Origin: Heloderma charlesbogerti
Taxonomy: Eukaryota > Chordata > Lepidosauria > Squamata > Helodermatidae
Length of the DNA: 64,000 nt
Direction: 5' to 3'
NCBI GenBank assembly: GCA_026122225.1
Contig: JANEZZ010001570.1
Location: 744,001-808,000 of the forward strand
Each line of letters starts with the position of its first letter. Within the stretch, counting starts at the first letter, position 1. A program made the translations under genes and the position numbers. Positions 670-58,890 of the stretch are shown piece by piece. A model generated the notes under the pieces. It did no database searches and had not been told where the DNA came from. It worked only from the letters and a program-made list of their open reading frames with translations.

Positions 670-1628
670 TAGGGGTGGACGAAAGTCACTTACCTTTTCT
701 CGCAGCTTGTTCGTGGTGTGGGGGAGCGCTTCGCTGCTCCCCCCGCGAAGTTCAGGCCGGGGGGGGAGGCTTCCCTTCTCGCCCGGCCGAAATTCAGGCC
801 AGGGGGGAGGCTTCCCTTCTCGCCCGGCCGAAATTCAGGCCGGGGAGGACGCTTCCCGCCTCGCCCGGCCGCGAACACGGAAGTTAAAAAAAAAAAAAAG
901 TCCCCTGATAGGCTACGTGACGATTCACGTAGCCTATCATGGCTAGATATGGAAAGTCAGCCGTGATAGGCTACGTGAATCGTCACGTAGCCTATCACGG
1001 GTGACTTTAAAAAAAAAAAAGCGCGTACGCGAATGGCGGCCCCCATAGGGAGCCGCCATTCGCGTTCCTTATTTAGTTGCTGTAGTCTACGTAAATGTTT
1101 ACGTAGACTACGGCGAAAATAAGGGCAACGCAAATAGCGTTGCCCTTATTTTCGCCGTAGTCTACGTAAACATTTACGTAGACGACAGCCACCAAATAAG
1201 GAACGGGAATGGTGGCTCCCTATGGGGGCCGCCATTATCCATACACACTTTTTTTTTTTAAAGTCACCCGGGATAGGCTACGTGATGATTGACGTAGCCT
1301 ATCACGGCTGACTTTGCAAATCTAGCCGTGATAGGCTACGTGAATCGTCACGTAGCCTATCAGGGGACGTTTTTTTTTTTTTTCTTTCATTGCAATGGCG
1401 GGGGCGGCAGCCGGTCGAAAGACCGGCTGCCGCTCCCGCCCCACTCGAACACCGGACGAACCACCAGCCGGACCCGCCGCCGGGAGGGACATTCAGGGAA
1501 GGTAAGTCCCGTCCTGGGGGGGGTGCGGGGGGGGTGCGGAGGATTTCTCACCGAAACATGTTCGGGGGGCCGAACACGTTGGCGCTCGCCCCCCCGAAGT
1601 TTCGGGGAGAAATTCTCCGCCATCCCTA
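670..1628. mobile_element. Hairpin hAT-like element (inner), full palindrome form
   Basis: About 959 bp, starting TAGGGGTG and ending CATCCCTA (1621-1628), flanked by the exact duplication GCTATGTG (662-669 and 1629-1636). It inserted into the stem of a hairpin of the outer element. Order: End B GC-rich block (670-890); two GATAGGCTACGTGAC-type hairpins (907-1000); a GCGAATGGCGGC palindrome (1025-1070); a GTAGTCTACGTAAA hairpin; the central AAGGGCAACGC palindrome near 1110-1150; then the same units mirrored; then End A, which holds the perfect hairpin GGCAGCCGGTC / GACCGGCTGCC (1405-1430). No transposase is encoded. Confidence 0.9.
737..865. repeat. GC-rich minisatellite inside End B
   Basis: About three tandem units of roughly 46 bp, each holding AAATTCAGGCC and CTCGCCCGGCCG. 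The same array, in variable copy number, sits in End B of the elements at 403, 23140, 54611, 56619 and 61640, which suggests expansion and contraction within the family. Confidence 0.8.
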
Positions 1629-6157: not shown

Positions 6158-6964
6158 TAGGGATGTACGGACTGTGTAAACTCTGCTCCGTTGGTGTTTT
6201 GCAGATTGTCAGGCACCTTTTGTTCCATCATGCGCTGCTCCTAGACCAATGCTTTTTTTTTTCCAACATGATGAAAAATATGCAAATAATTACATAAAAG
6301 GTTTTGTAACAATTAGGAATGTTTGAGAATTTCTCCACGGATTGGCATCCCTGCATTAGCCATGAGAGGTTATGTATATATTTATCACAAAATATAAGCA
6401 GGGATGCAAATGGCATAGCAGCCACCATTTGTGTCTCTGCTCTTTGCCATGATAGGCTACATAAATATATATGTAGCCTATCATGGCTAACACAGGGATA
6501 CAAATGGTGGCTGCTATGGCAGCCGCCATTTGCGGGCGTAGCCCGGCAGCAGACGGAGCTACGGCTGTGGGCAGCCCCGGCCGGTGGCTCCATGGACTCG
6601 CTGCAGAGTGGAGCCGGCCAGGGAGGATTCCGGGGGGAGGGACGGATCACCTCCCCCCCACCGCAGATACCCTGGACCAGAACAAGGTAAGGGATTTGTA
6701 CATCTCTAGTAACAATTTGCATAATTTACCTTTGTACTAACATTTAGCATATTGACCCCTATTCCATCCAACTTTTCCTCAGCAGAAACCTGCATATTTT
6801 CCTATGAATAAATATACATAAATTTTTAGAAAGTAAAAAAAAAAAAAGCGAAAGTCCATGGACTCCATGCAGCCAGGGGAGTGGGGTGTGCTCTGAAGCA
6901 GATTCTGCAGGTTGGACTCTTAGAAATCTGAGCTCATTTTAGTAGAATTTCTCCAGCATCCTGA
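6158..6964. mobile_element. End C type hAT-like MITE, with nested hairpin element
   Basis: Starts TAGGGATGTACGGACT and holds GATTGTCAGGCACC and TTTTGTTCCATCATG in the same order as the family members at 48913-49392 and (mirrored) 27003-27722. The right end TTTCTCCAGCATCCTGA matches the other family end TTTCTCCAACATCCCTA with changes. A second element is inserted at 6314-6708. I do not see an 8-bp duplication around the outer copy, so its right boundary may have been altered. Confidence 0.6.
6314..6708. mobile_element. Short hairpin hAT-like element
   Basis: About 395 bp, TAGGAATG to CATCTCTA, flanked by the exact 8-bp duplication GTAACAAT (6306-6313 and 6709-6716). Contains one GATAGGCTACATAAATA hairpin (6450-6486), one AAATGGTGGC/GCCGCCATTT palindrome (6500-6535) and an End B with AAGGTAAGG at 6684-6692. 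It is a deletion derivative of the longer family members, nested inside an End C type MITE. Confidence 0.85.
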
Positions 6965-10125: not shown

Positions 10126-10607
10126 TAGGGATGTTAGAAAACTCCTCCACGGATTTCAGGGAGGCCGAATTCCAGTGAATTCGGCCCCCCGGAATCCGTG
10201 GTGGAATGGAGCAACCCACCCCACAACCCCGCGAAAGCCCCGTGAAACGGAGCCTACCTGGCTGCGGCTCCAGTGGCGGTGGCTCTGGTGGCGGCGGCGG
10301 TTGCTGCTGGGCTGCATCCACAAATGGCAGCCACTATGCCGGCCACCATTTGCGTCCCTGGCAAGCCATGATAGGCTACATAAGTATCTACATAGCCTAT
10401 CACGGCTCAGGGCAGGGACGCAAATGCCATAGCCGCCATTTGCATCCGTATTTTGAGCTGTGATAGGCTATGTATATATGAAAAAATTCCATGGAGTCAC
10501 CATGGAGTGGAGCCGGTCAGGGAGGATTCCGGGGGGAGGGACGAAGTGCCTCCCCCCCTCGAGCAGACACCGCCACCAGAACAAGGTAAGGGATTCATAC
10601 ATCCCTA
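10126..10607. mobile_element. Hairpin hAT-like element, medium deletion form
   Basis: About 482 bp, TAGGGATG to CATCCCTA, with 8-bp flanks TTATTGAG and TAATTGAG (7 of 8). End A is on the left, where the sequence folds around GGCCGAATTCCAGTGAATTCGGCC (10160-10183). Then come an AAATGGCAGCC/GGCCACCATTT palindrome, a full GATAGGCTACATAAG hairpin (10368-10405), a second half hairpin (10449-10472) with its right arm missing, and End B with AAGGTAAGG. Confidence 0.85.
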
Positions 10608-11957: not shown

Positions 11958-12313
11958 GATGTAGAAAGTGGGTTAAGCTTGACACCGTGTTGGCGAGAAA
12001 GAGACAAGGGCCCAGGTGCCCGGACCTAGTCCAATACTCTAACCAGCACCCCATAGAAAATGCAGCAGGAGGCTACACGCTGGGCTCGGAGGGCAACAGG
12101 CAACACCCCCCAGGCCTCGAGATCCGCGGACCCGAAATCAAGCCAAGGCAGAGAGTCTTGGATGCCAGATAGGAGGGCCACACTCCACGGCCGATAACGG
12201 CTAAAGAGGTGAGTGGCACAGAGGGGGGGGGATTGTCGCCTGTTGTACGAACCGGCGCCCACAAGGCGCAGGAAGGGCCTGTGGCCACCAGCCGGGCCAG
12301 AATACGGGCGCTG

Positions 12314-12318
12314 CCTTT

Positions 12319-12361
<43 letters not shown>

Positions 12362-12478
12362 AATCTATTCATTCATTCATTTATTTATTTATAATCTATT
12401 CAGTTATTTATTTACTTATATTTATTTATTTATTTAATTTTTAATTTTAAATTTATTATTATTATTATTATTATTATT
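12314..12478. repeat. (TTTC)n, (TTTA)n and (TTA)n tract
   Basis: About twelve TTTC units, then ATTC/TTTA-rich sequence, then an ATT run ending at 12478. It lies directly beside the CpG-rich block, giving a sharp composition switch. Confidence 0.95.
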
Positions 12479-12499
12479 GGTGTGTGTGTTTGCTTGACT

Positions 12500-13480
12500 T
12501 TGGGGGGGGGTGCGCACACCGCCGCCACAAGCGCTCTGTGCTCCCAGAAGCAGCGACAGCTGGCCATCGGGGGGGGGGCGGACACGCTGCCATCATAAGG
12601 ACAGCAGCCTCGCAGGCCGGAAAAACGCCGACAGCAACCAGTGCCGCAGCCGAGCGCGCGCCGTCGCTATAAAGGCCGGCGCTCCCGTTGGCGCTGCGAC
12701 CCACTGCCTGGAGGGGCGGCGCCCCAACCCGCGCACCCCGCCACGAGCGAGGCAATTCCGGGGCCACGGCAGCATAAGGACGCCGTGACCGCTGGAGGAG
12801 GAAGTGGGGGGGTGGGGCGGGCGGGCTGCCGCCGCCTCCAGCACCGCCACCCCCGCAGGGGAGGATGACACAGGCGGCGCGGTCTGGCAGCACCCTGGGG
12901 GCACGGCGGCATTCACACACCACGACCCCCAGAGCAGGAGGCAGAACAAGGGGGTAGGCGCACCCCCGCCATAAATGCCGGCACCCCCGCAGGGGAGTGG
13001 GACAGAGGCGCTGCGCTTGGGAGTGACAGCAACCCTGGGGGTGCGGCGGCACACCGCGACCGCCGGAGAAGGCATACAACGTAGGGGGGCGGGCGGGCAA
13101 CCAGCCGCAAGTGGCAGTGCCCCCGGAGGGGAGCCGGACAAGAGGCGCCACTCCTGGGTGCACGCCGCTGGGCCTCCCACTGACACGGCAAGAGGCAGCC
13201 AAGGAGGGGGCGGCACCCGGACACGAGCGCCCAAGCCTCGCTCACCAGGAAACCTGGAGCCGGGTAGGCGCGGAAAAAGGGGGGGCAGGTGAGCTACCGC
13301 CGCAAGCCCCGGGGCCCACAGGGGCCCGCAAACCGCCGGAGGCAACAGGCCCCGAGCCCCAGCGCCTGCTGCCACCAACGTCGGTGCTCCTGCCAGGAGG
13401 GCAGGCACCAGGCACGAGGCAGCCACGCAGGAGCGCAAGCGCCCCACCGCGAGCACCAGGAATGCTGGAGCCGAGGCAAG
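12500..13480. repeat. CpG-rich degenerate minisatellite, unit about 130 bp
   Basis: Very GC-rich with many CpGs. Recurrent words GCACCCCCGCAGGGGAG, CCCTGGGGG(T/C)GC.GGCGGCA and CACCGCGACC return about every 125-135 bp (for instance near 12850, 12980 and 13115), with about five diverged copies. Long frames on both strands here (up to 330 codons on the minus strand) come from lack of stop codons in GC-rich repeats rather than from a conserved protein. Confidence 0.65.
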
Positions 13481-13879
13481 CGTCGACATGAAGTGGTTTG
13501 GGCGCGCTGATTGCACGCGGAGTCCAGTGGCTGCAACGACGATGAAGCTGATCTCCAGCAGGCAGGTGTCCTTCATTCGTTTCAAGGCAGAGCTGTCGTT
13601 CTCTATAGCTGCGTCGAGCCAGAGAGCTGAGATTGGGAGGGGGAGCTGAGTTTAAGGCAGCTCAGCCTGCCCCTCCCTGCATGGTGGTGCCACTGGGGTG
13701 CACCAATCAGAGGCCCCTACATCTTGTCACCCCACCTGCCCGCAATGGCCCCCCCTTTCAGCCAGACAAGCTGGCCCCGGGGTGAGGGCATAACTGACGG
13801 GTGGCGAAGGGAAAGGTCATCTTGTGTATGGCTGCCAATCTCATATTAGGCACCCACAGCAAACAGCCCTCAGAGGACC

Positions 13880-14890
13880 TTAGGTGGAGGACTGGGATGT
13901 AGAGGAGAAGGCACTCCCTAAGGTACCTTGGACTTTAAAGTTAAGAACCAGCACTTTATATTTTGCTCGGAAACAAATTGGCAGCCAGCGTAAAGATTTT
14001 AAAACTGGTATAATATGGTCTCCACAGGATGTCCCAGAGACCGACCTGGCTGCCATATTTTGTACCAGTTGACATTTCTGAACTAGATGTAAAGGCAGCC
14101 CCAAGTACAGCGCATTGCAGAAATCAAGCCTAGAGGTTACCAGTGCGTGGACCACCATTACCAGTCCACACATTCCAGGAATGGGCATAGTATCAGCCAA
14201 AGTTGATAACAGGCACTACTCACCATTGCCTCCTCCTGGGGTGCCAGGAGCAGGGTTGGGTCAAGAAGCACCCCCAAGTACCAACTTGCTCCTTCAGGTT
14301 GAGGGCAACCCAATCCAGAACCGGTTGACATACCTCAATACCTGAATTACTCACCATGAGCACCTCTGTCTTGCCTGGATTCAATTTCAGCTTGTTCTCC
14401 CTCATCCAGCCCATTACCGACTTCAGGCAGTCATTCAGAGGAGTCATACCTTCCTTGGATAGAGAAGTTAAGGAGAAATAGATTTGGGTGACGTCAGCAT
14501 ACTGATAACACTCAGCCCTAAACCTCCTAATGATCTCTCCCAGCGATTTCATCTAGATATTGAACAGCATTGGGGATAGAATGGAGCTCTGAGGGACTCC
14601 ACATAATAGTTCCTTTTTGGAGGAACAACTATCCCCAAGCGATGCCATCCGGAACCATCCTGAGACAAAGGAGTGGAATGACTACAGAGCAGTGCCCCCA
14701 ACTCCCAACAGCGATCCAGAAGGATACCATGGTGAATGGTATTGAATGCCTCTGAGAGATCCAAATGAATCAACAGGGATGCACTCCCCCTATCAATTCT
14801 CAGGCGAAGATCATCCAACAAGGTGATGATGGCAGTCTCAACTCTGTATCCCCCTCTGAAGCTGGTTTGAAATGCACTTGATAGATGCAT
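13880..14890 (-). pseudogene. L2-clade LINE, reverse transcriptase fragment
   Basis: Minus-strand ORF2 remains in three shifted frames. From 14890: FQTSFRGGYRVETAIITLLD and LLIHLDLSEAFNTIHHGILL (RT core with the D in the DLSEAF box). From 14552: IYFSLTSLSKEGMTPLNDCL and MGWMRENKLKLNPGKTEVL (thumb-side motif). From 14200: HALVTSRLDFCNALYLGLP then HIIPVLKSLRWLPICFRAKY, the C-terminal domain typical of L2-like elements. Between blocks there are frameshifts and the YxDD region is degraded (ADVTQIYFS). The 3' end runs to about 13840. Confidence 0.85.
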
Positions 14891-18426: not shown

Positions 18427-19295
18427 TAGGGATGGCGGAGAATTCCACCACGGATTTCAGTGAGGCTGAATGCACTGGCATTCGGCCCACTGAAGTCCGT
18501 GGCGGAACAGCCTCCCACCCCCCGCGGATTCCCCCCCACCGGGACGAAGCTTACCTGGGGTGGATGTTCCAGCGGCGGCAGCGGCTCCAGTGGCGGCTCC
18601 GGCGGCGGCTGGTCTTTCGACCGGCTGTCGTGGCCACCATTTGCATCTGCTCTTTGCCGTGATAGGCTATGTAAGTATTTACGTAGCCTATCACGGCAGG
18701 CAAAAGAAAAAAGAAAAAAAAACAGTGAACGCAAATGGCGGCAGCTACGGCAGCCGCCATTTCCGTTCCCTATTTTTAGCCGTTTTAGCCTACATAAATA
18801 TTTACGCAGGCTATTACGGCGAAAAAAAGGGGAACGTAAATAGTATAGTGGGCGCTATTTGCGTTCCTTTTTCTTTTGCCGTAATAGCTTAAGTAAATAT
18901 TTATGGAGGCTAAAACGGCAAAAAACAGGGAACGCAAATGACGGCCGCCGTAGCCGCCGCCATTTGCATACGCTGTTTTGTTTTTTCCTGTGGTGATAGG
19001 CTACGTAAATACTTACGTAGCCTATCACGGCAGCCTGGCTGGATGCAAATGGCGGCCGCTACGGCAGCCGCCATTTGCATCCGCAGCAGCCAGTCCACGG
19101 CCGGAATTCCGGCTGCGGACGGCCCTGGCCGGCGGCTCCACAGAGCTGCCACAGAGCGGAGCTGGCCGGGCAGGATTCTGGGGGGAAAGACCGGATCGCC
19201 TCCCCCCATCGAGGATTCCGGGCGGAGGGACAGAGCGCCTCCCCCCCACCGCGAATCACATCCATGAAAAGGTAAGTGACTTTCATACATCCCTA
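18427..19295. mobile_element. Hairpin hAT-like element, ATATTT-loop subfamily
   Basis: About 869 bp, TAGGGATG to CATCCCTA. Flanks AAAAGTGA and AAAAGGGA match at 7 of 8. Left End A contains a CACGGATTTCAGTG/CACTGAAGTCCGTGG palindrome (18449-18501). Two GATAGGCTACGTAAATA hairpins (18660-18700, 18997-19032) flank AAATGGCGGC palindromes (18735-18765, 18935-18968, 19045-19080) and central TAGCCTACATAAATATT hairpins. Right End B has AAGGTAAGT at 19269-19277. It splits a LINE ORF2 tail. Confidence 0.9.
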
Positions 19296-20699: not shown

Positions 20700-20842
20700 G
20701 ACCACAGCTCCATTTGGGGTTCTCTGGGGATTCAGGCAGGAATTTCCATTTCCAGCCCTACATAGAGAAGCTGGGGATCAAACCTGGGACCTTCTGCATG
20801 TAAAGCAGGTACTCTACCACTGAGCCACAGACCTTCCCTCAT
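20700..20842 (-). repeat. tRNA-derived SINE
   Basis: On the minus strand: A-box-like TGGCTCAGTGGTAGAGTA, then CTGCTTTACATGCAGAAGG, B-box-like GGTTTGATCCC, and the module CTGCCTGAATCCCCAGAGA. This is the usual head of the reptile SINE whose tail is at 15240-15367. Confidence 0.85.
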
Positions 20843-23139: not shown

Positions 23140-24029
23140 TAGGGATGTACGAAAGGCACTTACCTGGTCCCACAGCATGCTTCGCGGTGGGGGGGAGGAG
23201 CTTCGGTTCTCCCCCCAAATTTCACGCCGGGGGGGGAGGCGCCCCGCCTCGCCCGGCCGAAATTCAGGCCGGGGAGAAGCACCCCGTCTCCCCGGCCACG
23301 AAATAAAAAAGTGGGGGGAAAAAAACAAAACCCATGATAGGCTACGTAACGATTTACATAGCCTATCACGGCTAGATTCCCAAAGTCAGCCATGATAGGC
23401 TACGTAAATCATTTCGTAGCCTATCACGGGTGACTTTGGAAAAAAAAAAAGCGCGTACGCAAATGGCGGTGCCCCTGGGCACTGCCATTTGCATTCCTTA
23501 TTTGGTCACGGTAGTCTACGTAAAGATTTACGTAGACAACGGCGAAAATAAGGGCAACGCTATTTGCGTTGCCCTTATTTTCGCCGTAGTCTATGTAAAT
23601 CTTTACGTAGACTACCGGGACCAAATAAGGAACACAAATGGCAGCGCCCATGGGCGCCGCCATTTGCATACGTGCCTTTTTTTCCCCTTCAAAATCACCC
23701 GTGATAGGCTACGTAACAATTTACGTAGCCTATCACGGCTGACTTTGGAAATCTAGCCGTGATAGGCGACATAAATCATTACGTAGCCTATCACGGGTGT
23801 TTGGGTTTTTTTACTTTTTTTTTTTTCACCGGCCGCCGCCCCCGCCCCCGACGAACCGCCGCCGAACTCCCGCCGGGACCTGCCGCCGAGAGGGACATTC
23901 GAGGGAGGTAAGTCCCATCCTGGAGGGTGGCGGGGGGGTGGTGGAGAATTTCGCCAACTATTTTGGGGGGCTGAATGCATTGGCATTCGGCTTCCCCGAG
24001 ATTCGTGGAGAAATTCTCCGCCATCCCTA
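23140..24029. mobile_element. Hairpin hAT-like element, complete
   Basis: About 890 bp, TAGGGATG to CATCCCTA (24022-24029), exact 8-bp duplication GTCCACAC (23132-23139, 24030-24037). End B is left (CACTTACC at 23158-23165), End A right (AGGTAAGT at 23906-23913). Four GATAGGCTACGTAA hairpins, in two pairs each joined by a CTAGATTCCCAAAGTCAGCC-type spacer, flank AAATGGCGGTGCC and GGCAGCGCC palindromes, GTAGTCTACGTAAA hairpins and the central AAGGGCAACGC palindrome near 23560. Order is H1-H2-H3-H4-H5-H4'-H3'-H2'-H1'. Confidence 0.93.
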
Positions 24030-26871: not shown

Positions 26872-27278
26872 GTTTTATTATTAGACCTATATGGATGTTC
26901 TCCAAGACTGGATTTCTGAGCATATGGATGTAAATTCCACTGAAAGAAATGGGAATGATGCCAAGTTCATACCTGCATGTTGGCCCTCAGTAAGTGTGAC
27001 ATTAGGGATGCTGGAGAAATTCGAGATGGACTAAAATGAGCTCAGATTTCTAAAATTCTGACATGCGGAATCCACTGCAGAGCAGCCTCCTCAGGCAGCA
27101 CAGAGTCCATGGACTGCCATAAGATTTTTTAATTTTCCTGAAATTTATGCATATAAATTTGTAGGAAAATATGCAGGAAATGTTGAATGTAATCGGGAAC
27201 AATATGCTAAATATTATGTACTAAGGTAAATTATGTAATTACATAAGTACTTATGTAATTATTTCCGTATTTTTCTGC

Positions 27279-27534
27279 TAGGGGTGTATGAAACCCTTCT
27301 TTCCTGGCTCCGCCAGGTTCCACAGGTGGGGGGAGGTGATCCATTCCTCCCCCTGGAATCCTCGACGGGGGGGCGATCCATTCCTCCCCCCGGAATCCTG
27401 CCCGGCAAGCTCTGCTTTGCAGCCAGGCCACAGAGCCACCGGCCGGACCAACCTGCAGCGGGGCCTCCAGCCTGCCGAAATTTGCTGGCATTCGGCCTCA
27501 CTGGGATCCGTGGTGGAATTCTCCGCCATCCCTA
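27279..27534. mobile_element. Minimal hairpin-family element (ends only)
   Basis: About 256 bp, TAGGGGTG to CATCCCTA, flanks TTTTCTGC and TTTTCCGC (7 of 8). It consists only of an End B-like GC-rich block (two GGAATCCT-CGAC/CCCG units) joined to End A (CGAAATTTGCTGGCATTCGG). All GATAGGCTACG and ATGGCGGC palindromes are gone, so the ends alone were enough to move. Confidence 0.85.
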
Positions 27535-27545
27535 TTTTCCGCATG

Positions 27546-27547
<2 letters not shown>

Positions 27548-27615
<68 letters not shown>

Positions 27616-27620
27616 TACAT
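27548..27620. repeat. (TA)n(CA)n(TA) microsatellite
   Basis: Alternating tract within the End C MITE. Confidence 0.95.
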
Positions 27621-27730
27621 ATATATATTTGCATCTGTCTGTGGGTGTACAATGGAACAAAAGGCACCTGACAATCCACAAAACACTGACGGAGTGGATT
27701 TTATACAGTCTGTACATCCCTATGTGACAT

Positions 27731-31889: not shown

Positions 31890-32354
31890 GTCTTTCTCAT
31901 AGAATCAGTATAGTGGGGTTGGAAGGAGCCTACAAGGCCACTGAGTCCAACCCCCTGCTCAATGCAGGAATCTAAGTCAGAGCATCCCTGACAGATGGCT
32001 GTCCAGCCTCATCTTGAATGCCTCCAGTGTGGGAGAGCCCACCACCACCCTAGGTAATCGGTTCCATTGTCGTATTGCTCTAACAGTCAGGAATTTTTTC
32101 CTGATGTTCAGCCAGAATCTGGCTTCCTGTACCTTGAGCCCATTATTCCGTGTCCTGCATTCTGGGATGATCGAGAAGAGATCCTTGTCTTCCTCTCTGT
32201 GACGACCTTTCAAGTAGTTGAAGAGCACTATCCTATCTCCCCTCAGTCTTCTCTTCTCAAGGCTAAACATGCCCAGTTCTTTCACTTTCTCTTCATAGGG
32301 CTTTGTTTCCAGTCCCCTGATCATCTTTGTTGCCCTCCTCTGAACTCTCTCCAC
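31890..32354 (-). pseudogene. CR1 LINE: ORF2 C-terminus and 3' UTR
   Basis: Minus strand reads ERVQRRATKMIRGLETKPYE, FSLEKRRLRGDRIVLFNYLK, ARFWLNIRKKFLTVRAIRQW, NRLPRVVVGSPTLEAFKMRL, ending with a stop, the textbook CR1 ORF2 C-terminus, followed by the CR1 3' UTR (CTTGAGTCC-type region, GGTTGGAAGGAGCC, ATAGAATC). The 125-residue frame is intact. The upstream end is a target-site duplication copy CTCTCCAC (32347-32354) next to a hairpin element. The rest of the same CR1 is at 32687-33773 (inverted) and 34136-38760. Confidence 0.95.
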
Positions 32355-35314: not shown

Positions 35315-35886
35315 ATGATGCCGGAAGATGAGACCCTCAAGTTGGAAGGTGTCCAATATACTACTGGGAAAGAGCAGAGGGAATTTCCAAGTAGCGCCAG
35401 AAAGAGTGAAGCGGCTGGGCCAAAGCCGAAAGGACACTCAGCTGTGGATGTGTCTGGTGGTGAAAAGAAAATCCGATGCTGTAAAGAACAATATTGTTTA
35501 GGAACCTGGAATGTCAGATCAATGAATCAAGGTAAGCTGGAGGTGGTCAAACATGAGATGGCAAGATTGAACATCGACATCTTGGGAATCAGTGAACTAA
35601 AATGGACAGGCATGGGTGAATTTAACTCAGGCGACCATCATATCTACTACTGTGGGCAAGAATCCCTTAGAAGAAATGGAGTAGCACTCATAGTCAACAA
35701 AAGGGTGGGAAAAGCAGTACTGGGGTACAATCTTAAAAATGATAGAATGATCTCAGTACGAATCCAAGGCAAACCATTCAACATCACAGTAATTCAAGTC
35801 TATGCCCCAACCACTGATGCCGAAGAAGCTGAGGTTGATCGGTTCTATGAAGACCTACAACACCTTCTAAAACTAACACCAAAAAA
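35315..35886 (+). pseudogene. BovB ORF2 part 1: endonuclease N-terminal half
   Basis: Encodes the apurinic-type endonuclease start. TWNVRSMNQGKLEVV (N of the active-site pocket), ILGISELKWTGMGEF (catalytic E region), HIYYCGQESLRRNGVALIV, FNITVIQVYAPTTDAEEA (Y/P motif) and VDRFYEDLQHLLKLTPKK are all intact. The frame is lost after LTPKK because the coding A-run (35881-35886) has six A where an unbroken frame needs seven. No SL is expected; RTE elements carry EN at the ORF start. Confidence 0.93.
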
Positions 35887-37505
35887 GATGTCCTCTTCAT
35901 CATAGGGGATTGGAATGCTAAAGTAGGAAGTCAAGAAATCACCGGGATAACAGGCAGGCATGGCCTTGGTGTACAAAATGAAGCAGGACAAAAGCTCATA
36001 GAGTTTTGCCAAGAGAACATGCTGATCATAGCAAACACTTTTTTCCAACAGCACAAGAGACGACTCTACACATGGACATCACCAGAAGGTCAATATCGAA
36101 ATCAGATTGATTATGTCCTTTGCAGCCAAAGATGGAGAAGCTCCATACAGTCAGTCAAAACAAGACCTGGAGCTGACTGTGGCTCAGGTCATGAGCTGCT
36201 TCTTGCAAAATTTCGGCTTAAATTGAAGAACGTTGGGAAAACCACTAAACCATTCAGGTATGACCTAAATCATATCCCTTATGAATATACAGTGGAGGTG
36301 AGGAATAGATTTAAGGGATTAGACCTGATAGACAGAGTGCCTGAGGAACTCTGGACGGAGGTCCGTCACATTGTTCAGGAGGCAGCAACAAAATCCATCC
36401 CAAAGAAAAAGAAATGCAAGAAAGCCAAGTGGCTGTCTGATGAGGCTTTAGAAGTAGCTGAGGAAAGAAGGGAAGCGAAAAGCAAGGGAGATAGGGGAAG
36501 ATATATCCAACTGAATGCAGAGTTCCAGAGAATAGCAAGGAGAGACAAGAAGGCCTTCTTAAAGGAACAATGCAAAGAAATCGAGGAAAACAACAGAATG
36601 GGAAAGACTAGAGATCTCTTCAAGAAAATTGGAGACCTCAAGGGAACATTTTGTGCAAAGATGGGCATGATAAAGGACAAAGAAGGCAGGGACCTAACAG
36701 AAGCAGATGAGATTAAGAAGAGGTGGCAAGAATACACAGAAGAACTATACAGGAAAGATCTGAATGTCCCTGATAGCCATGATAGTGCGGTCACTGAACT
36801 TGAGCCGGACATCCTTGAGAGTGAAGTCAAGTGGGCCTTAGGAAGCATTAGTAACAACAAAGCTAGTGGAGTTGACAGTATTCCAGCTGAGCTATTTAAA
36901 ATCCTAAAAGATGATGCTGTTAAAGTGCTGCATTCAATATGCCAACAAATTTGGAACACTCAGCAGTGGCCACAAGACTGGAAAAGGTCAGTTTACATTC
37001 CAATTCCAAAGAAGGGCAATGCCAAAGAGTGTACAAACTACCGCACAATTGCGCTCATTTCACATGCCATCAAGGTGATGCTCAAAATCATACAAGCTAG
37101 GCTTCAGCAGTATGCGAACCGAGAACTACCGGAAGTACAAGCTGGGTTTCGAAGAGGCAGAGGAACTAGAGATCAAATCGCCAACATTCGCTGCATCATG
37201 GAGAAAGCAAGAGAATTCCAGAAAAACGTCTATTTCTGCTTCATTGACTACGCTAAAGCCTTTGATTGTGTGGATCACAACAAACTGCAGCAAATTCTTA
37301 AAGAGATGGGAGTACCAGACCACCTTACCTGTCTCCTGAGAAACCTGCACGAGGGTCAAGAAGCAACAGTAAGAACCGGACATGGAACAACTGATTGGTT
37401 CAAAATTGGGAAAGGAGTACGACAAGGCTACATATTGTCACCCTGCTTATTTAACTTATATGCAGAGTACATCATGAGAAATGCCGGGTTGGATGAATCA
37501 GAGGT
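35887..37505 (+). pseudogene. BovB ORF2 part 2: endonuclease C-terminal half and RT core
   Basis: Open from 35887 with DVLFIIGDWNAKVG (EN GDWN box), QIDYVLCSQRWR and GADCGSGHELLLA (EN SDH-equivalent with G at the S position). After a basic linker the RT begins: SGVDSIPAELFKILKDD, IPIPKKGNAKECTNYRTIAL, QAGFRRGRGTRDQIANIRCI, FCFIDYAKAFDCVDHNKL (RT motif with catalytic D), VRQGYILSPCLFNLYAEYIM. The frame shifts by one base near 37510, shortly before the catalytic YADD. About 540 residues open, close to what the family needs. Confidence 0.95.
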
Positions 37506-37511
37506 CGGATT

Positions 37512-38300
37512 GCTGGGAGAATTATCAACAACCTCTGATATGCAGACGATACCACCCTAATGGCAGAAAGTGAAGAGGATCTCAAGAGCCTCTTGTTCAG
37601 GGTGAAAGAGGAGAGTGCAAAAGCTGGTTTGAAACTCATCATTAAAAAAACAAAGATCATGGCATCTGGCCCTATCACTTCCTGGCATATCGAAGGGGAA
37701 GAAATGGAAGCAGTGACAGATTTTACTTTCTTGGGCTCCAAGATCACTGCAGACGGTGACTGTAGCCATGAAATTAAAAGACGCTTGCTCCTTGGGAGGA
37801 AAGCTATGGCCAACTTAGACAGCATAGTAAGAAGCAGAGACATCACCTTGCCGACAAAGGTCTGTCTAATCAAAGCTATGTTTTTCCCAGTAGTAATGTA
37901 TGGCTGTGAGAGCTGGACTATAAGGAAGGCTGAGCGCCGAAGAATTGATGCTTTTGAACTGTGGTGCTGGAGAAGAAGAGTCTTACGAGTCCCCTGGACT
38001 GCAAGGAGGTCCAATCAGTCAATCTTAAAGGAAATCAACCCTGAGTGCTCATTGGAAGGGCAGATACCGAAGCTGAAGCTCAAATATTTTGGCCACCTAA
38101 TGAGAAGAGAAAACTCTCTGGAAAAGACCCTGATGCTGGGAAAGACTGAAGGCAAAAGGAGAAGGGGATGGCAGAGGATGAGATGGCTAGATAGCATCAC
38201 CAATGCAATGAATATGAACTTGAGCACACTCCGGGAGAGAGCGCAGGACAGGAAGGCCTGGCGTGCTATGGTCCATGGGGTCATGAAGAGTTGGACATGA
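37512..38300 (+). pseudogene. BovB ORF2 part 3: YADD to C-terminus
   Basis: In the shifted frame a TGA at 37536-37538 stands immediately before YADD (37539-37550). The family has an arginine there, so CGA to TGA, a CpG transition, is the simplest explanation. Then MAESEEDLKSLLFRVKEE, KTKIMASGPITSWHIEGEE, FTFLGSKITADGDCSHEIKR, FFPVVMYGCESWTIRKAERR, AFELWCWRRRVLRVPWTA, KYFGHLMRRENSLEKTLMLG and the end RAWRAMVHGVMKSWT then stop. This C-terminal region is otherwise intact. Confidence 0.95.
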
Positions 38301-48912: not shown

Positions 48913-49392
48913 TAGGGATGTATGGATTTTGTTTAATCCATTCCATCTCTGTTTCACTGATTGTCAAGTGCCTTTCATTCCATCACTTGGTCATTGACAG
49001 AATCAGATTTTTCCCTTTTCAGAAAAGTACACAAAAAGTCTACCACAATTCATGTAACTTCACTGGCACAAAATGTTATTTTTCTTAGCTCAGCGTACAA
49101 TCAACCAGCAGAACACACACAAAAAGAGTGCTAGACAATGGAGGCTGAAGAGAGATCAGAGATGTATAAAATGTTGTGTGTGTTTAAATGGAGTATATAT
49201 TGTGTATTTTCCAGTAACTTTTGTATTTTCATAAAACTGAATTTGCATAAATTATGGAAAGCAAGAAAATGGTCCACAAGGCCTCGGAACCTGTGCAACT
49301 CAAAAGATGCCAGTCCATTGTGGAATCTTCAGGTGAAATTCATAGAAATCTGAAGTCATTTGAATCCATTTCAGATTTCTCCAACATCCCTA
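48913..49392. mobile_element. End C type hAT-like MITE, complete
   Basis: 480 bp, TAGGGATG to CATCCCTA (49385-49392), exact 8-bp duplication CACATCCA (48905-48912, 49393-49400). AT-rich. The left end has GATTGTCAAGTGCCTTTC as at 6200 and, mirrored, 27670. It is the cleanest copy of this AT-rich family in the window. Confidence 0.92.
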
Positions 49393-52675: not shown

Positions 52676-53871
52676 TAGGGATGTAAGAAAAAAATATTTC
52701 AGTTTTTTATCAGGATTTACTCTGAGCAAACCATGGACTTGAATGCAATCTGGAGCCAAAGTCCATGAATTTCTGAGCTTGCAAAGTGATTCATGGACCC
52801 CCCAAAATACATTTCACAGCATGCACACATTTGAAAAATACATATGAAAAATGTGTACTTTTGAAAAATTAGGGATGTATGAAATCCCTACCTGGCTCCA
52901 TGCTGGTCAATCTGTGTGTGTGGGGGGAGGCACTCTGTCCCTTCCCCTGAAATCCTCCCAGGCCGGCTCCGCTCCACAGTGGCTCCGTGGAGCCACTGGC
53001 CAGGGCCAGCCGCAGCTGGAGTTCCGGCCGCTGCCGGGCTGCTGCGTCCTTGCAGTAAGCCATGATAGGCTACGTAAGTATTTAAGTAACCTATCATGGC
53101 AAAAGGCAGCCACACAAATGGTGGTCACTATGCCATTTGCGTGGCTGCCTTTTGCTGTGATAGGCTACGTAAATACTTATGTAGCCTATCATGGCTTACT
53201 GCAAGGACGCAAATGGTGTAGCGGCCACCATTTGCGCTCCTGCTCTTTGCCGTGATAGGCTACATAAGTATTTACGTAGCCTATCACAGCAAAAGGCAGC
53301 CACGCAAATGGCATAGTGACCACCATTTGTGTGGCTGCCTTTTGCCATGATAGGTTAATTAAATACTTATGTAGCCTATCGTGGCTTACTGCAAGGATGC
53401 AAATGGCGGCCAGTACGACGGCCACCATTTGCAGCCACAGCAGCCCAGCAATGGCCAGGAGACCAGCCAGAGCCGCCGCCACTACATCAGCCACCACTGG
53501 AGCCACAGAATCCGCCAGGTACGTCCTGTCCCAGGGGATTCCATGGGCTGGCAGGGTGGGGGAGTCTGTTCCACCATGGATTCTGGGGGGCCAGATTCTA
53601 AAGCATCTGGCCTCACTGGAGCCCATGGAGGAATTCTCTGACATCCCTATGAAAAATGCACACAAACATGCTTTAATCAATGGGAGAAAAATGTGCACAT
53701 TTCAAAGATGTGCACAATTGATGCATACATTTGGGAAAATACACATAAAAATATGCATAAATTTTCATGGGAAAAGGGGAAAAAATCACAATCTGATTTG
53801 TGACAAAATGAACTTTGATGTGGAATTTAGAGAACTTCAGCAATATCGAGTTTTGCTTGTACACATCCCTA
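52676..53871. mobile_element. End D type hAT-like MITE with nested hairpin element
   Basis: TAGGGATG at 52676 to CATCCCTA at 53871; the right end (GAACTTCAGCAATATCGAG, TTTTGCTTGTACACATC) mirrors the left end of 2940. AT-rich interior with AAATGTGCAC-like repeats. A complete hairpin element is nested at 52870-53649. I see no matching 8-bp flank (ACTATCTC, AGTGATCC). Confidence 0.65.
52870..53649. mobile_element. Hairpin hAT-like element, complete, nested
   Basis: About 780 bp, exact 8-bp duplication TGAAAAAT (52862-52869, 53650-53657). Four GATAGGCTACGTAA(A/G)TA hairpins (53063, 53157, 53258, 53347 starts), each partly degraded, alternate with AAATGGTGGTC/GTGGCTGCC palindromes (GCCACGCAAATGGC...). 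The End A side (right) has GGATTCTGGGGGGCC. Confidence 0.92.
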
Positions 53872-54610: not shown

Positions 54611-55532
54611 TAGGGATGGCGAAGAATTTCTCCCCGAAACTTCGGGGGGCCGAGCGCCAACATGTTCGGCCCCCCGAACAGGTTTTGGGGAGACGTTCTC
54701 CGCACCCCCCGCACCCCCCCCGGGACGGGACTTACCTTCCCTGAATGTCCCTCCTGGCGGCGGGTCCGGCTGGCGGTTCGTCGGGTGTTCGAGCGGGGCG
54801 GGAGCGGCAGCCGGTCTTTTGACCGGCTGCCGCCCCCGCCATTGCAATAAAAGAAAAAAAAAAACAACGTCCCCTGATAGGCTACGTGACGATTCACATA
54901 GCCTATCATGGCTAGATTTGCAAAGTCAGCCGTGATAGGCTACGTGAATCGTCACGTAGCCTATCACGGGTGATTTAAAAAAAAAAAAAAAGTGTGTACG
55001 GATAATGGCGGCCCCCATAGGGAGCTGCCATTCCCGTTCCTTATTTGGTCGCTGTAGTCTACGTAAATGTTTACGTAGACTACGGCGAAAATAAGGGCAA
55101 CGCTATTTGCATTGCCCTTATTTTCGCCGTAGTCTACGTAAACATTTAAGTAGACTACAGCAACTAAATAAGGAATGCGAATGGCGGCTCCCTATGGGGG
55201 CCGCCATTCGCGTACGCGCTTTTTTTTTTTTTAAGTCACCTGTGATAGGCTACGTGATGATTCACGTAGCCTATCACGGCTGACTTTGCAGATCTAGCCG
55301 TGATAGGCTACATGAATCGTCACGTAGCCTATCAGGGGGCGTTGTTGTTTTTTTTAACTTTCGCGTTCGCGGCCGGGCGAGGCGGCAAGCCTCCTCCCTG
55401 GCCTGAATTTCGGCCGGCCCGAGGCGGGAAGCCTCCCCCCCCGGCCTGAACTTCACGGGGGGAGCAGTGAAGCGCTCCCCCCGCACCGCGAACAAGCTGC
55501 GAGAAAAGGTAAGTGACTTTCGTCCACCCCTA
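54611..55532. mobile_element. Hairpin hAT-like element, complete, GTGACGATTCAC subfamily
   Basis: About 922 bp, TAGGGATG to CACCCCTA. Flanks share TTGTGCT, offset by one base. End A left (GAAACTTCGGGGGGCC... palindrome; ACTTACCTTCCCTGAATG), GGCAGCCGGTC/GACCGGCTGCC hairpin, four GATAGGCTACGTGA hairpins, ATGGCGGCC palindromes, GTAGTCTACGTAAATG hairpins and the central AAGGGCAACGC palindrome (near 55095), End B right with AAGGTAAGT at 55506-55514. Confidence 0.9.
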
Positions 55533-56610: not shown

Positions 56611-56618
56611 CATTTGAG

Positions 56619-57593
56619 TAGGGGTGGACGAAAGTCGCTTACCTGTCGTCGAAGGCCGTTCGCGGTGGGGGGGAGCACTTCGCTGGTCCCCCCGCGAAGT
56701 TCAGGCCAGGGGGGGGAGGCTTCCCGCCTCGCCCGGCCGAAATTCAGGCCGGGGGGGAGGCTTCCCGCCTCGCCCGGCCGAAATTCAGGCCGGGGAGGAG
56801 GCTTCCCGCCTCGCCCGGCCGCGAACGCGGAAGTAAAACAAACAAAAAAAAGCCCCCTGATAGGCTACGTGACGATTCACGTAGCCTATCATGGCTAGAT
56901 CTGCAAAGTCAGCCGTGATAGGCTACGTGAATCGTCACGTAGCCTATCCCAGGTGACTTTAAAAAAAAAAAAAAAAGCGCGTACGTGAATGGCGGCCCCC
57001 ATAGGGAGCCGCCATTCGCGTTCCTTATTTAGTGGCTGTCGTCTACGTAAATGTTTACGTAGACTACGGCGAAAATAAGGGCAACGCAAATAGCGTTGCC
57101 CTTATTTTCGCCGTAGTCTACGTAAACATTTACGTAGACTACAGCCACCAAATAAGGAACGCGAATGGCGGCTCCCTATGGGGGCCGCCATTATCCGTAC
57201 ACACTTTTTTTTTTTTTTTTTAAGTCACCCGGGATAGGCTACGTGACGATTCACGTAGCCTATCACAGCTGACTTGGCAAATCTAGCCGTGATAGGCTAT
57301 GTGAATCGTCACGTAGCCTATCAGGGGACTTTTTTTTTTTTCTTTGATTGCAATGGCGGGGGTGGCAGCCGGTCGAAAGACCAGCTGCCACTCCCGCCCC
57401 GCTCGAACACCGGACGAACCGCCAGCCGGACCCGCCGCCGGGAGGGACATTCAGGGAAGGTAAGTCCCGTCCCGGGGGGGGGTGCGGGGGGCAGGGGGGT
57501 GCGGAGGATTTCTCACCGAAACTTGTTCGGGGGGCCGAACGCGTTGGCGCTCGGCCCCCCGAAGTTTCGGGGAGAAATTCTCCGCCATCCCTA
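56619..57593. mobile_element. Hairpin hAT-like element, best complete example
   Basis: 975 bp, TAGGGGTG to CATCCCTA (57586-57593), exact 8-bp duplication CATTTGAG (56611-56618, 57594-57601). End B (56619-56835) with three 46-bp units; H1 56855-56890; H2 56911-56946; H3 ATGGCGGCCCCC/GAGCCGCCAT 56988-57020; H4 GTCTACGTAAATG 57030-57068; H5 AAGGGCAACGC/GCGTTGCCCTT 57075-57105; H4' 57113-57142; H3' 57160-57195; H2' 57228-57265; H1' 57285-57325; End A 57345-57593 with GGCAGCCGGTC stem-loop, AAGGTAAGT and a GCGTTGGCGC-centred palindrome. Every block is itself a palindrome and the whole core is also one. Confidence 0.95.
57457..57465 (+). other. Consensus 5' splice-site-like motif, End A
   Basis: AAG|GTAAGT. 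Its End B partner on the minus strand is CAG|GTAAGC at 56637-56645, so the element has outward-facing donor-like motifs at both ends. Confidence 0.5.
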
Positions 57594-58495
57594 CATTTGA
57601 GCAAACAATGCAATTGATTTTATGAAGGTTCATGCCTAGTGCTCCTATGGTTCTTCAATGGCATAATCACAGGGACCATCCATACTGTAAACACCTCCCA
57701 TTGAATGAATACTGACTTCCATATTTTCTTCAACTTCAAGTCCATTTAAAACATCTTATGGAGAATTGGATGTATTTAATCCAATCCTGATATCCTATCC
57801 ATCCAACTAGTGTCTCATAAGGAGGTATCTTGAAACCTCAAGGATAAGCTCTAATTTCCATCAGCTGAACAATTCATATGGGCTTCAAGGGATGGATAAA
57901 GATGTTGTTTCGGTTTGTTTTTTGATAGCATTTACTAAAAGTAAGAAATATGTGGAACAGAAAGAACTTGAGATTTTAAAAAATCCTATGTGGGATAAAG
58001 ACAGACTGACAGATTCATCCATCCCTAGTTTTTCCTTGATTTTTCATCCAATGTACTAGCATGTATGTTTCAGTATTCTAGTTAGCTGTCTCCATACTAC
58101 TATAGTTTTGGCCATGGGGTTTATCACAGAAGATTGGACATTCAGGATACAATGTCTTCAAATTGGTATGAATTTTATTTGCAAATTTTGCAACTGTTAC
58201 CAGACATAGGGACGTTGTGGACATCTGCGGGGGGGAGTCTGCTGGACATCCACCCGCTCACTCCCCCATAAATTGTGCATAATGCTGCTATTTACAGCTT
58301 CCGTTATGTGCAAAACAAAATTGTGATTTATGTACATAGATTACCCATGATTTTCTACAAAATAGCACCTTGCAGGGCTGTGGGACACTGCATCCCACTT
58401 GCCTGGCACCCGTGGAACATACGGTGGCTTGCCCTACATGCTGAACAGGGTCAGCTGGCTGGCAATGTTTTCTGCATGTTTGAGAATTAATCATA
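57594..58495. other. No gene recognised
   Basis: Unclassified DNA. 57888-58025 ends in CCATCCCTAG and may be a decayed TAGGGATG-type MITE. Confidence 0.45.
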
Positions 58496-58890
58496 GAATC
58501 ATAGAATAGTAGGGTTGGAAGGGGCCTGTAAGACCATTGAGTCCAACCCCCTGCTTAATGCAGGAATCCAAGTCAGAGCATCCCTGACAGATGGCTATCC
58601 AGCCTCATCTTGAATGCCTCCAGTGTGGGAGATCCCACCACCTCACTAGGTAATTAGTTCCATTGTCATATTGCTCTAACAGTCAGGAAGTTTTTCCCGA
58701 GGTTCAGCCGGAATCTGGCTTCCTGTAACTTGAGCCCATTATTCCATGTCCTGCACTCTGAGATGATTGAGAAGAGATCCTGGCCTTCCTCTCTGTGACA
58801 ACCTTTCTAGTACTTGAAGAGCACTATCATATCTCACCTCAGTCTTCTCTTCTCAAGGCTAAACATGCACAGTTCTTTCAGGCTCTAAAA
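58496..58890 (-). repeat. CR1 LINE 3' end
   Basis: Antisense CR1 tail matching 31890-32300: CATAGAATAGTAGGGTTGGA, AGGAATCCAAGTCAGAGC, CCTGACAGATGGCTATCCAG, AATGCCTCCAGTGTGGGAG, TTGCTCTAACAGTCAGGAAG. Stops around 58890. Confidence 0.9.

Follow-up and report, generated by a model that had tools for sequence, protein, structure and literature searches.

A hAT MITE of Heloderma charlesbogerti whose body is a mirrored subterminal array of palindromes

Elements of the hAT superfamily have short TIRs of the TAGGG/CAGNG type, and foldback (FB) elements have long inverted arms that reach the termini and vary by repeat expansion. Excerpts of the relevant literature state that hAT transposases bind subterminal repeats via BED fingers (PMC10368747), and that Tol2, Tag1 and Ac need ends extending far beyond the TIR (PMC10368747; PMC4763223). 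In Hermes, the left end carries a quasi-palindromic pair of repeats, STR1-STR2, which is cooperatively bound by two BED domains, while the right end binds none (PMC10368747, in the available part). A hAT MITE of the Atlantic cod, gadMor-hAT-1784, is described in the accessible portion of its report as having ~600-bp arms of 167-169-bp tandem repeats (PMC12368964), and the long inverted arms of Galileo are likewise stated to vary by repeat expansion (excerpt of PMC4168063).

Here, we analyse an element at positions 56619-57593 of a 64,000-nucleotide stretch of the genome of Heloderma charlesbogerti (contig JANEZZ010001570.1, positions 744,001 to 808,000; hereafter the window), the parts and relatives of which are given in Table 1. 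The element is striking in its build but ordinary by superfamily: it is a hAT MITE, the body of which is its partner's mirrored subterminal hairpin array. As in other hAT MITEs and derivatives (Ac-Ds type, Hermes, Tol2), there are 8-bp target-site duplications, short TIRs of the TAGGG type (TAGGGGTGG and TAGGGATGG at the two ends), subterminal repeats and a partner that shares an end with the element and encodes a transposase with BED and hAT-dimerisation domains. A preliminary description had taken arms made wholly of self-palindromic units to be outside the described standard classes; because of the duplications, the ends and the partner's transposase, we place the element in the hAT superfamily. 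It is shorter than about 1 kb, carries no transposase and is present in many copies with sharp ends, as is typical of MITEs.

There are, however, differences to the described systems. The subterminal repeats are 30-45-bp palindromes that alternate every ~50 bp, and instead of joining two ends, the short element mirrors a single one. The array at one end is in keeping with the palindromic subterminal sites of Hermes, which is rich in such sites at one end and poor at the other, but the Hermes quasi-palindrome lies within 17 bp (PMC10368747, in the available part), as compared to about seven long palindromes here. With gadMor-hAT-1784, the element shares membership among the hAT MITEs, the absence of an ORF and long inverted arms of internal repeats; the cod arms, in contrast, consist of 167-169-bp direct tandem repeats rather than ~50-nt alternating half-units, and self-palindromic alternating half-units do not feature in the accessible portion of its description (PMC12368964). 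Arms of ~167-bp direct tandem repeats are absent here. Galileo belongs to the P superfamily and has direct tandem repeats (excerpt of PMC4168063). The Pfam domains of the partner found here, on the other hand, are BED and hAT dimerisation, and unlike in FB elements and Galileo, where the arms are terminal, the mirrored core is internal, spanning positions 216-731 of the 978-bp family consensus. To our knowledge, a hAT end that consists of such alternating half-units has not been published. A literature search for such ends yielded none among the matches listed, a search with the A motif as letters gave only unrelated titles among the matches listed, and one for a named squamate or gecko family brought up nothing relevant among the matches listed.

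Table 1. Parts of the element at 56619-57593 and its relatives in the window
Feature	Position	Strand	Remarks
Whole non-autonomous element, 975 bp	56619..57593	+	ends TAGGGGTGG..CCATCCCTA; flanked on both sides by 8-bp duplication CATTTGAG
Target-site duplication CATTTGAG, left	56611..56618	.	
Target-site duplication CATTTGAG, right	57594..57601	.	
Left end with 41-bp GC-rich palindromic tandem units	56619..56832	+	homologous to extreme 3′ end of autonomous hAT, reversed
Left arm of long palindrome, half-units h1-h6	56836..57087	+	
Palindrome A1 (GATAGGCTACGTGACGATTCACGTAGCCTATC)	56859..56890	.	
Palindrome A2	56917..56948	.	
Palindrome B1 (AATGGCGGC..GCCGCCATT)	56988..57016	.	
Palindrome a1, TAGTCTACGTAAA type	57038..57067	.	
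Central palindrome b, mirror axis of element	57068..57112	.	20-bp stem, 5-nt loop
Right arm, most simply a mirror copy of left arm, half-units h7-h12	57093..57345	-	
Palindrome a2	57113..57142	.	
Palindrome B2	57164..57192	.	
Palindrome A3	57233..57264	.	
Palindrome A4	57291..57322	.	
Right tail	57346..57593	+	without match in autonomous composite
Second copy of 56619 family, 92.7% identical	670..1628	+	duplication GCTATGTG; nested in relative 403-1998 (duplication CTATGAGT)
Small relative, three centres (BAB)	6314..6708	+	duplication GTAACAAT
Small relative, three centres (BAB)	10126..10607	+	duplication, one mismatch
Relative with alternating array	18427..19295	+	duplication, one mismatch
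Diverged family, also mirror order AABabaBAA	23140..24029	+	duplication GTCCACAC
Relative, simple alternation ABAbABAB	52870..53649	+	duplication TGAAAAAT
Inverted copy, one end rearranged	54611..55532	-	

The core of the element (56836-57345) is its own reverse complement at 93%. It consists of outer inverted repeats (56836-56985 and 57196-57345; 150 nt, 92%) and inner ones (56988-57087 and 57093-57192; 100 nt, 98%) around 5 nt, and separate small hairpins are also present within the arms. Folded as single-stranded DNA, the 510-nt core reaches -280.1 kcal/mol as compared to a shuffle mean of -63.4 (z -44; none of 100 shuffles was as good). The window contains 73 local palindromes, of which a few represent AC/TG repeats or have no relation to the array, as compared to none after a single mononucleotide shuffle. 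Nine self-palindromes follow each other in the order A A B a b a B A A (a pattern scan of array types, which overlooked the central b, gives eight), and two weak axes, termed C, sit between the A pairs. Cutting the core at every axis yields twelve half-units, all of which, read outward from an A axis, start with NNTYACGTAGMCTA, and the four that reach a B axis run on to AATGGCGGC. A single half-unit of ~50 nt, composed of half A, a linker and half B, thus recurs along the array in alternating orientation. Alternating inverted copies of a single half-unit generate a palindrome at every junction as well as over the whole. The two levels of palindromy that had been noted for this element are real, but they are thus one fact rather than two. 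The same half-unit also builds four diverged arrays that were read fully, with neighbours across an axis being roughly 70-95% alike (in these arrays, axes were placed and type letters assigned manually on the basis of the pattern scan, and one axis of the array at 18427 was added), and half-units align across all five arrays read.

Searching the genome (2.30 Gb, 3,246 contigs) with the element gave 4,020 candidates, and the best 40, which were scored, were all near full length and 91-100% identical. The alignment comprised 42 copies, 39 from among these 40 places and three, including the query, from the window; 39 of the 42 were full length, and the other three were omitted. In 36 of the 39 full-length copies, the TAGGG..CCCTA ends are bordered by 8-bp direct duplications that differ at no more than one position, the exceptions being L009, L032 and L038. 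The family consensus is 978 bp long, with a mean divergence of 3.5% and copy lengths of 934-989 bp. The consensus core forms 244 Watson-Crick pairs over 516 columns, and each of the nine blocks pairs (12-20 pairs). The ancestor hence already had the palindromes, which are decaying in its copies, rather than their being the decay artefact of a single copy, a possibility that had been raised with the preliminary description. Its claim of a transposon family with self-palindromic blocks in mirror order is borne out by the AABabaBAA order both at 56619-57593 and in the 39-copy consensus, which also retains, as had been proposed for many copies, pairing at the level of the blocks and of the whole core. 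The places 670, 23140 and 54611 indeed hold mirrored arrays as well, the one at 54611-55532 being inverted, with the outermost 92 bp of one end aligning poorly. The mirror order, however, is a property of the 56619 family and of the element at 23140, whereas several relatives merely alternate (BababaBAA, ABAbABAB, AbABAB, BAB), the first of these being the array of L069.

Relatives that are delimited by duplications have 0, 3, 6, 7, 8 or 9 centres, and spans with a higher number of centres contain nested copies. The relative without an array, at 27279-27534, measures 256 bp and keeps both end types and a duplication with one mismatch; it is nested in 27003-27722. This latter element and the one at 48913-49392 have perfect 8-bp duplications and TAGGGATG ends without an A/B array, and they are probably other hAT MITEs. 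The relative at 403-1998 is older, its array being split by the copy at 670-1628, and the insertion site lies within an A palindrome. Insertions into relatives were found at 9 of 38 sites (p=0.006 against a coverage of 9.1%, 0.11 against 15%). The former coverage comes from 20 stretches of 2.5 kb, of which five hold arrays and in which 9.1% of the 50 kb matches relatives from the window; these stretches were taken at round-number coordinates of larger contigs on which copies are also located, such that they are no true random draw. Since the elements are abundant, they are relevant for genome size, nesting and annotation.

A Pfam search of the genome for the hAT dimerisation domain (PF05699) gave 871 candidates, and the best 150, which were scored, were all over the cut-off, with 17 of them in open frames of at least 870 codons (counted from the table). 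Three of the loci, L102, L103 and L104, are 97.9-99.0% identical over 7.8-8.3 kb and each have an open frame of 879 codons. In L102, this frame (P0001) contains a zf-BED domain at residues 142-191 and a Dimer_Tnp_hAT domain at 754-836 (Pfam), and it has four matches in PDB, two named Hermes transposase and two only transposase, the best over residues 770-835. A tblastn search with P0001 at 1e-3 found no match in the window or in 28 loci. Positions 1-541 of the short-element consensus correspond to the 3′ end of the autonomous element in reverse (89.4% identity with L103 8275-7740, 82.7% with L102), and L104 matches the consensus in pieces (3-120 and 134-469) at about 89%. Furthermore, consensus positions 405-731, mirrored, also match this 3′ end. 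Judged by eye, the autonomous array has the order half b, a, b, a, B, A, C, A, and in L102 it follows 3.3 kb after the frame. The 41-bp GC-rich tandem units at 56667-56832, each of them palindromic, lie between the left end and the array of the short element, and the autonomous 3′ end has them too.

The autonomous element measures 9.4-9.8 kb. The L102 copy is delimited at both ends (C2955:1607338 to 1616728, 9.39 kb), with the flanks ATTTGTTC and CTTTGTTC matching at seven of eight positions. In a second copy on C1330, the flanks differ (TCCCTAGC and CTCCTGCC), which counts against a clean insertion there; a copy of the short element ends two bases upstream of it. The 5′ end, TAGGGATGTCAGAGAAATTCTC, was seen in two copies and carries no A/B array, such that in the two autonomous copies seen at both ends the array is present at one end only. 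We conclude that this element is likely the autonomous partner of the short element. The right tail of the short element has no match anywhere in the autonomous composite, which rules out that the short element is a simple internal deletion of its partner. Read on the reverse strand, the tail opens with TAGGGATGGCGGAGAATTTCTCC and by eye resembles the autonomous 5′ end over the terminal ~24 bp. The hexamer CGAAAG, chosen after looking, occurs four times in the first 400 bp of the composite, three times in the last 600 bp and twice in the 8,770 bp in between. A minisatellite (CCCATGTGCCTGCCTGCC..) is located at about 1230-1950 of L105 in the 5′ part of the autonomous hAT. Two short segments of the window, 31914-32021 and 58489-58617, are 82-89% identical to composite positions 6455-6584, outside the array, and are perhaps a shared unrelated repeat.

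With respect to the origin of the mirror, the arrays of the three autonomous copies share 93-97% identity with the left arm of the short element and 90-93% with the right arm, and the arms are 96% identical to each other. The first ~541 bp, comprising the left end, the GC-rich units and the array as far as the central axis, are homologous to the partner's subterminal 3′ end, with the other half of the core mirroring that array, and the right arm is most simply explained as a mirror copy of the left. In the 23140 family, of which we have one copy, the arms are 89% alike to each other and 85-87% to those of the 56619 family. Arms being more alike within than across families argues for independent mirroring or for re-copying. 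L066, a copy of the 56619 family in the sampled stretches, has the right-type linker GTACGGATAATGGCGG on both arms (about 2070-2290) and looks re-mirrored, the state expected after a second round of mirroring. The consensus arms differ at nine columns. Throughout these columns, not one of the 39 copies has its left and right arms homogenised, though scattered single states are exchanged; these copies were chosen by likeness to a query with unlike arms, a choice that is biased against re-mirrored copies. The consensus has a perfect central stem (20 bp, 5-nt loop) and L102, by eye, an imperfect one, which is what fold-back copying at this hairpin would be expected to leave. Template switching can generate perfect stems along with compensatory changes of several bases in a single event, according to the part of the study by Monttinen and Löytynoja that is available (PMC8794818). 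The arrays resemble these cases in the copying of the reverse complement, but the cases described there are RNA genes, whereas here it would be a mobile element that multiplies the product. The build-up of the array by a process that makes reverse-complement copies, as previously proposed, fits these observations, and we infer that growth by copying at hairpins is the best account of it. An origin of the array by serial self-insertion was set aside, the A/B spacing being regular at ~50 bp.

The palindromy of the modules is kept through double changes. Among 89 A modules from the window and the 20 sampled stretches, one stem pair is G-C in 64, T-A in 16 and C-G in eight (one other), and another is A-T in 66 and G-C in 15 (eight others), counts that refer to sequences and not to independent events and that come from a search (at most seven mismatches in 24 to one consensus) which disfavours finding compensated variants. 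Unlike these compensated pairs, two CpG pairs of the A modules decay one-sidedly. One pair of 80 B modules, also counted as sequences, is G-C in 64 and A-T in ten (six others); the sets of 89 A and 80 B modules include a few that are broken or match by chance. The private changes among 39 close copies comprise one double-complementary and 68 one-sided changes, with 0.18 double changes expected, which is no clear excess. Outside CpGs, variants that at least three copies share are less frequent in modules (6 alleles at 222 sites) than in linkers (11 at 115) or beyond the core (23 at 261; p=0.006 for modules against the latter), and variation in the linkers is about twice that in the modules (0.0232 versus 0.0103). 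Singletons are not significantly rarer in modules (26 at 222 sites versus 44 at 261 outside, p=0.15; 14 in linkers), and the interaction between singleton and shared variants is not significant (p=0.16, or 0.08 with linkers pooled). Because of these two results, the data go no further than suggesting that selection acts on the modules. The multiplying lineages thus seem to retain both palindromy and module sequence, but in resident copies this is not visible.

As a whole account, we consider it probable that this is a high-copy non-autonomous hAT element that mirrors the array end of its partner, grew by hairpin copying, is mobilised in trans and retains its palindromes as BED sites. The array and its mirror arm would have arisen while DNA was replicated or gaps were repaired, via template switching or fold-back synthesis at a hairpin, and the partner's transposase would act in trans to excise and reinsert the short element. 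Both types of palindrome, A and B, may be kept as putative paired sites for the BED domains of the transposase, such that a doubled array end would make a better substrate. This is the least certain step; by analogy with Hermes, the palindromes are candidate sites for BED pairs, and CGAAAG, which is common to both autonomous ends, fits less well because it lies outside the A and B consensus. A very strong long hairpin and arms composed of palindromic units would also be expected of a separate foldback-type class that is defined by its hairpin arms and moved or copied by a hairpin-specific process. Yet the duplications and ends are of the hAT type, an autonomous hAT has the same end and array, the palindrome stops short of the termini, and the mirror order is missing in several relatives, so that such a class is largely refuted and very improbable. 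Palindromes are hard to sequence, but an assembly or decay artefact can be dismissed as refuted in view of copies with intact duplications on many contigs and a consensus core that pairs throughout. There is a small chance that the modules are sites for host transcription factors: ATGGCGGC in B, which we take to be the YY1 core, is found again in the majority of the 80 B modules, some of which match by chance, but this motif was picked after sight, and such sites would explain neither the palindromy nor the A modules.

It is possible, though we think it unlikely, that the palindromes are kept for hairpins of single-stranded DNA or RNA, which might block gap repair, protect the ends or provide double-stranded RNA that acts on the autonomous end, and not as half-sites for a protein on duplex DNA. 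The stem energies are large, and the compensatory changes maintain pairing, as a hairpin role would have it. The ends of the snapdragon element Tam3 are rich in hairpins and resist gap repair, although a literature search gave no paper on this among the matches listed. A head-to-head pair of Tam3 elements gives rise to a hairpin RNA, and small RNAs from the 5′ end with its transposase motifs suppress Tam3 (PMC12449043). However, the module sequence itself is conserved here (TAG.CTACGTAAA), beyond what pairing requires, which points to sequence recognition. Alternatively, there may be no selection at all, with palindromy being refreshed by repeated template switching and module conservation reflecting recent copying from unit to unit. 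The greater likeness of arms within (96% and 89%) than across families (85-87%), the two right-type arms of L066 and the fact that one template switch can yield perfect stems together with multi-base compensatory changes (available part of PMC8794818) speak for this, but linkers, which would be copied as well, vary about twice as much as modules (0.0232 versus 0.0103 outside CpGs; shared alleles at 11/115 versus 6/222 sites), and we remain doubtful of it.

Beyond the account of mirroring, trans mobilisation and retained BED sites, a wider and tentative reading, for which we would not claim much likelihood, is that hAT ends grow recurrently by serial hairpin copying with concerted arms and units, as the re-mirrored look of L066 would exemplify, that every further palindrome adds a pair of BED sites, and that mirroring of the end with the array creates a runaway parasite of the autonomous element. 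If true, a mutation process, template switching, would directly build better transposition substrates. It has long been asked where long foldback elements and MITEs originate and how palindromes of this kind withstand mutation. In this single genome, there is a series from an array-less relative via arrays of three to nine centres and mirrored forms to an autonomous partner with an array at one end, which allows hairpin copying to be tested directly against selection for transposase sites.

The window has further features. A GC-rich stretch (61%) at 12000-14000 contains long overlapping open frames, one of which was tested and had no Pfam match. LINE reading frames of 569 and 253 aa are found at 35315-38300 on the plus strand, the first with a reverse-transcriptase domain (frame 35851-37557), which we take to be BovB/RTE-like; it was the only one of five window frames scanned to match Pfam. 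Together with 19 places that beta-keratin models (PF02422) match over the cut-off, this frame points to a squamate reptile as the host. With Rfam at gathering scores, the sole match in the window was a tRNA at 20763-20834 on the minus strand (36.1 bits), which is possibly the head of a SINE.
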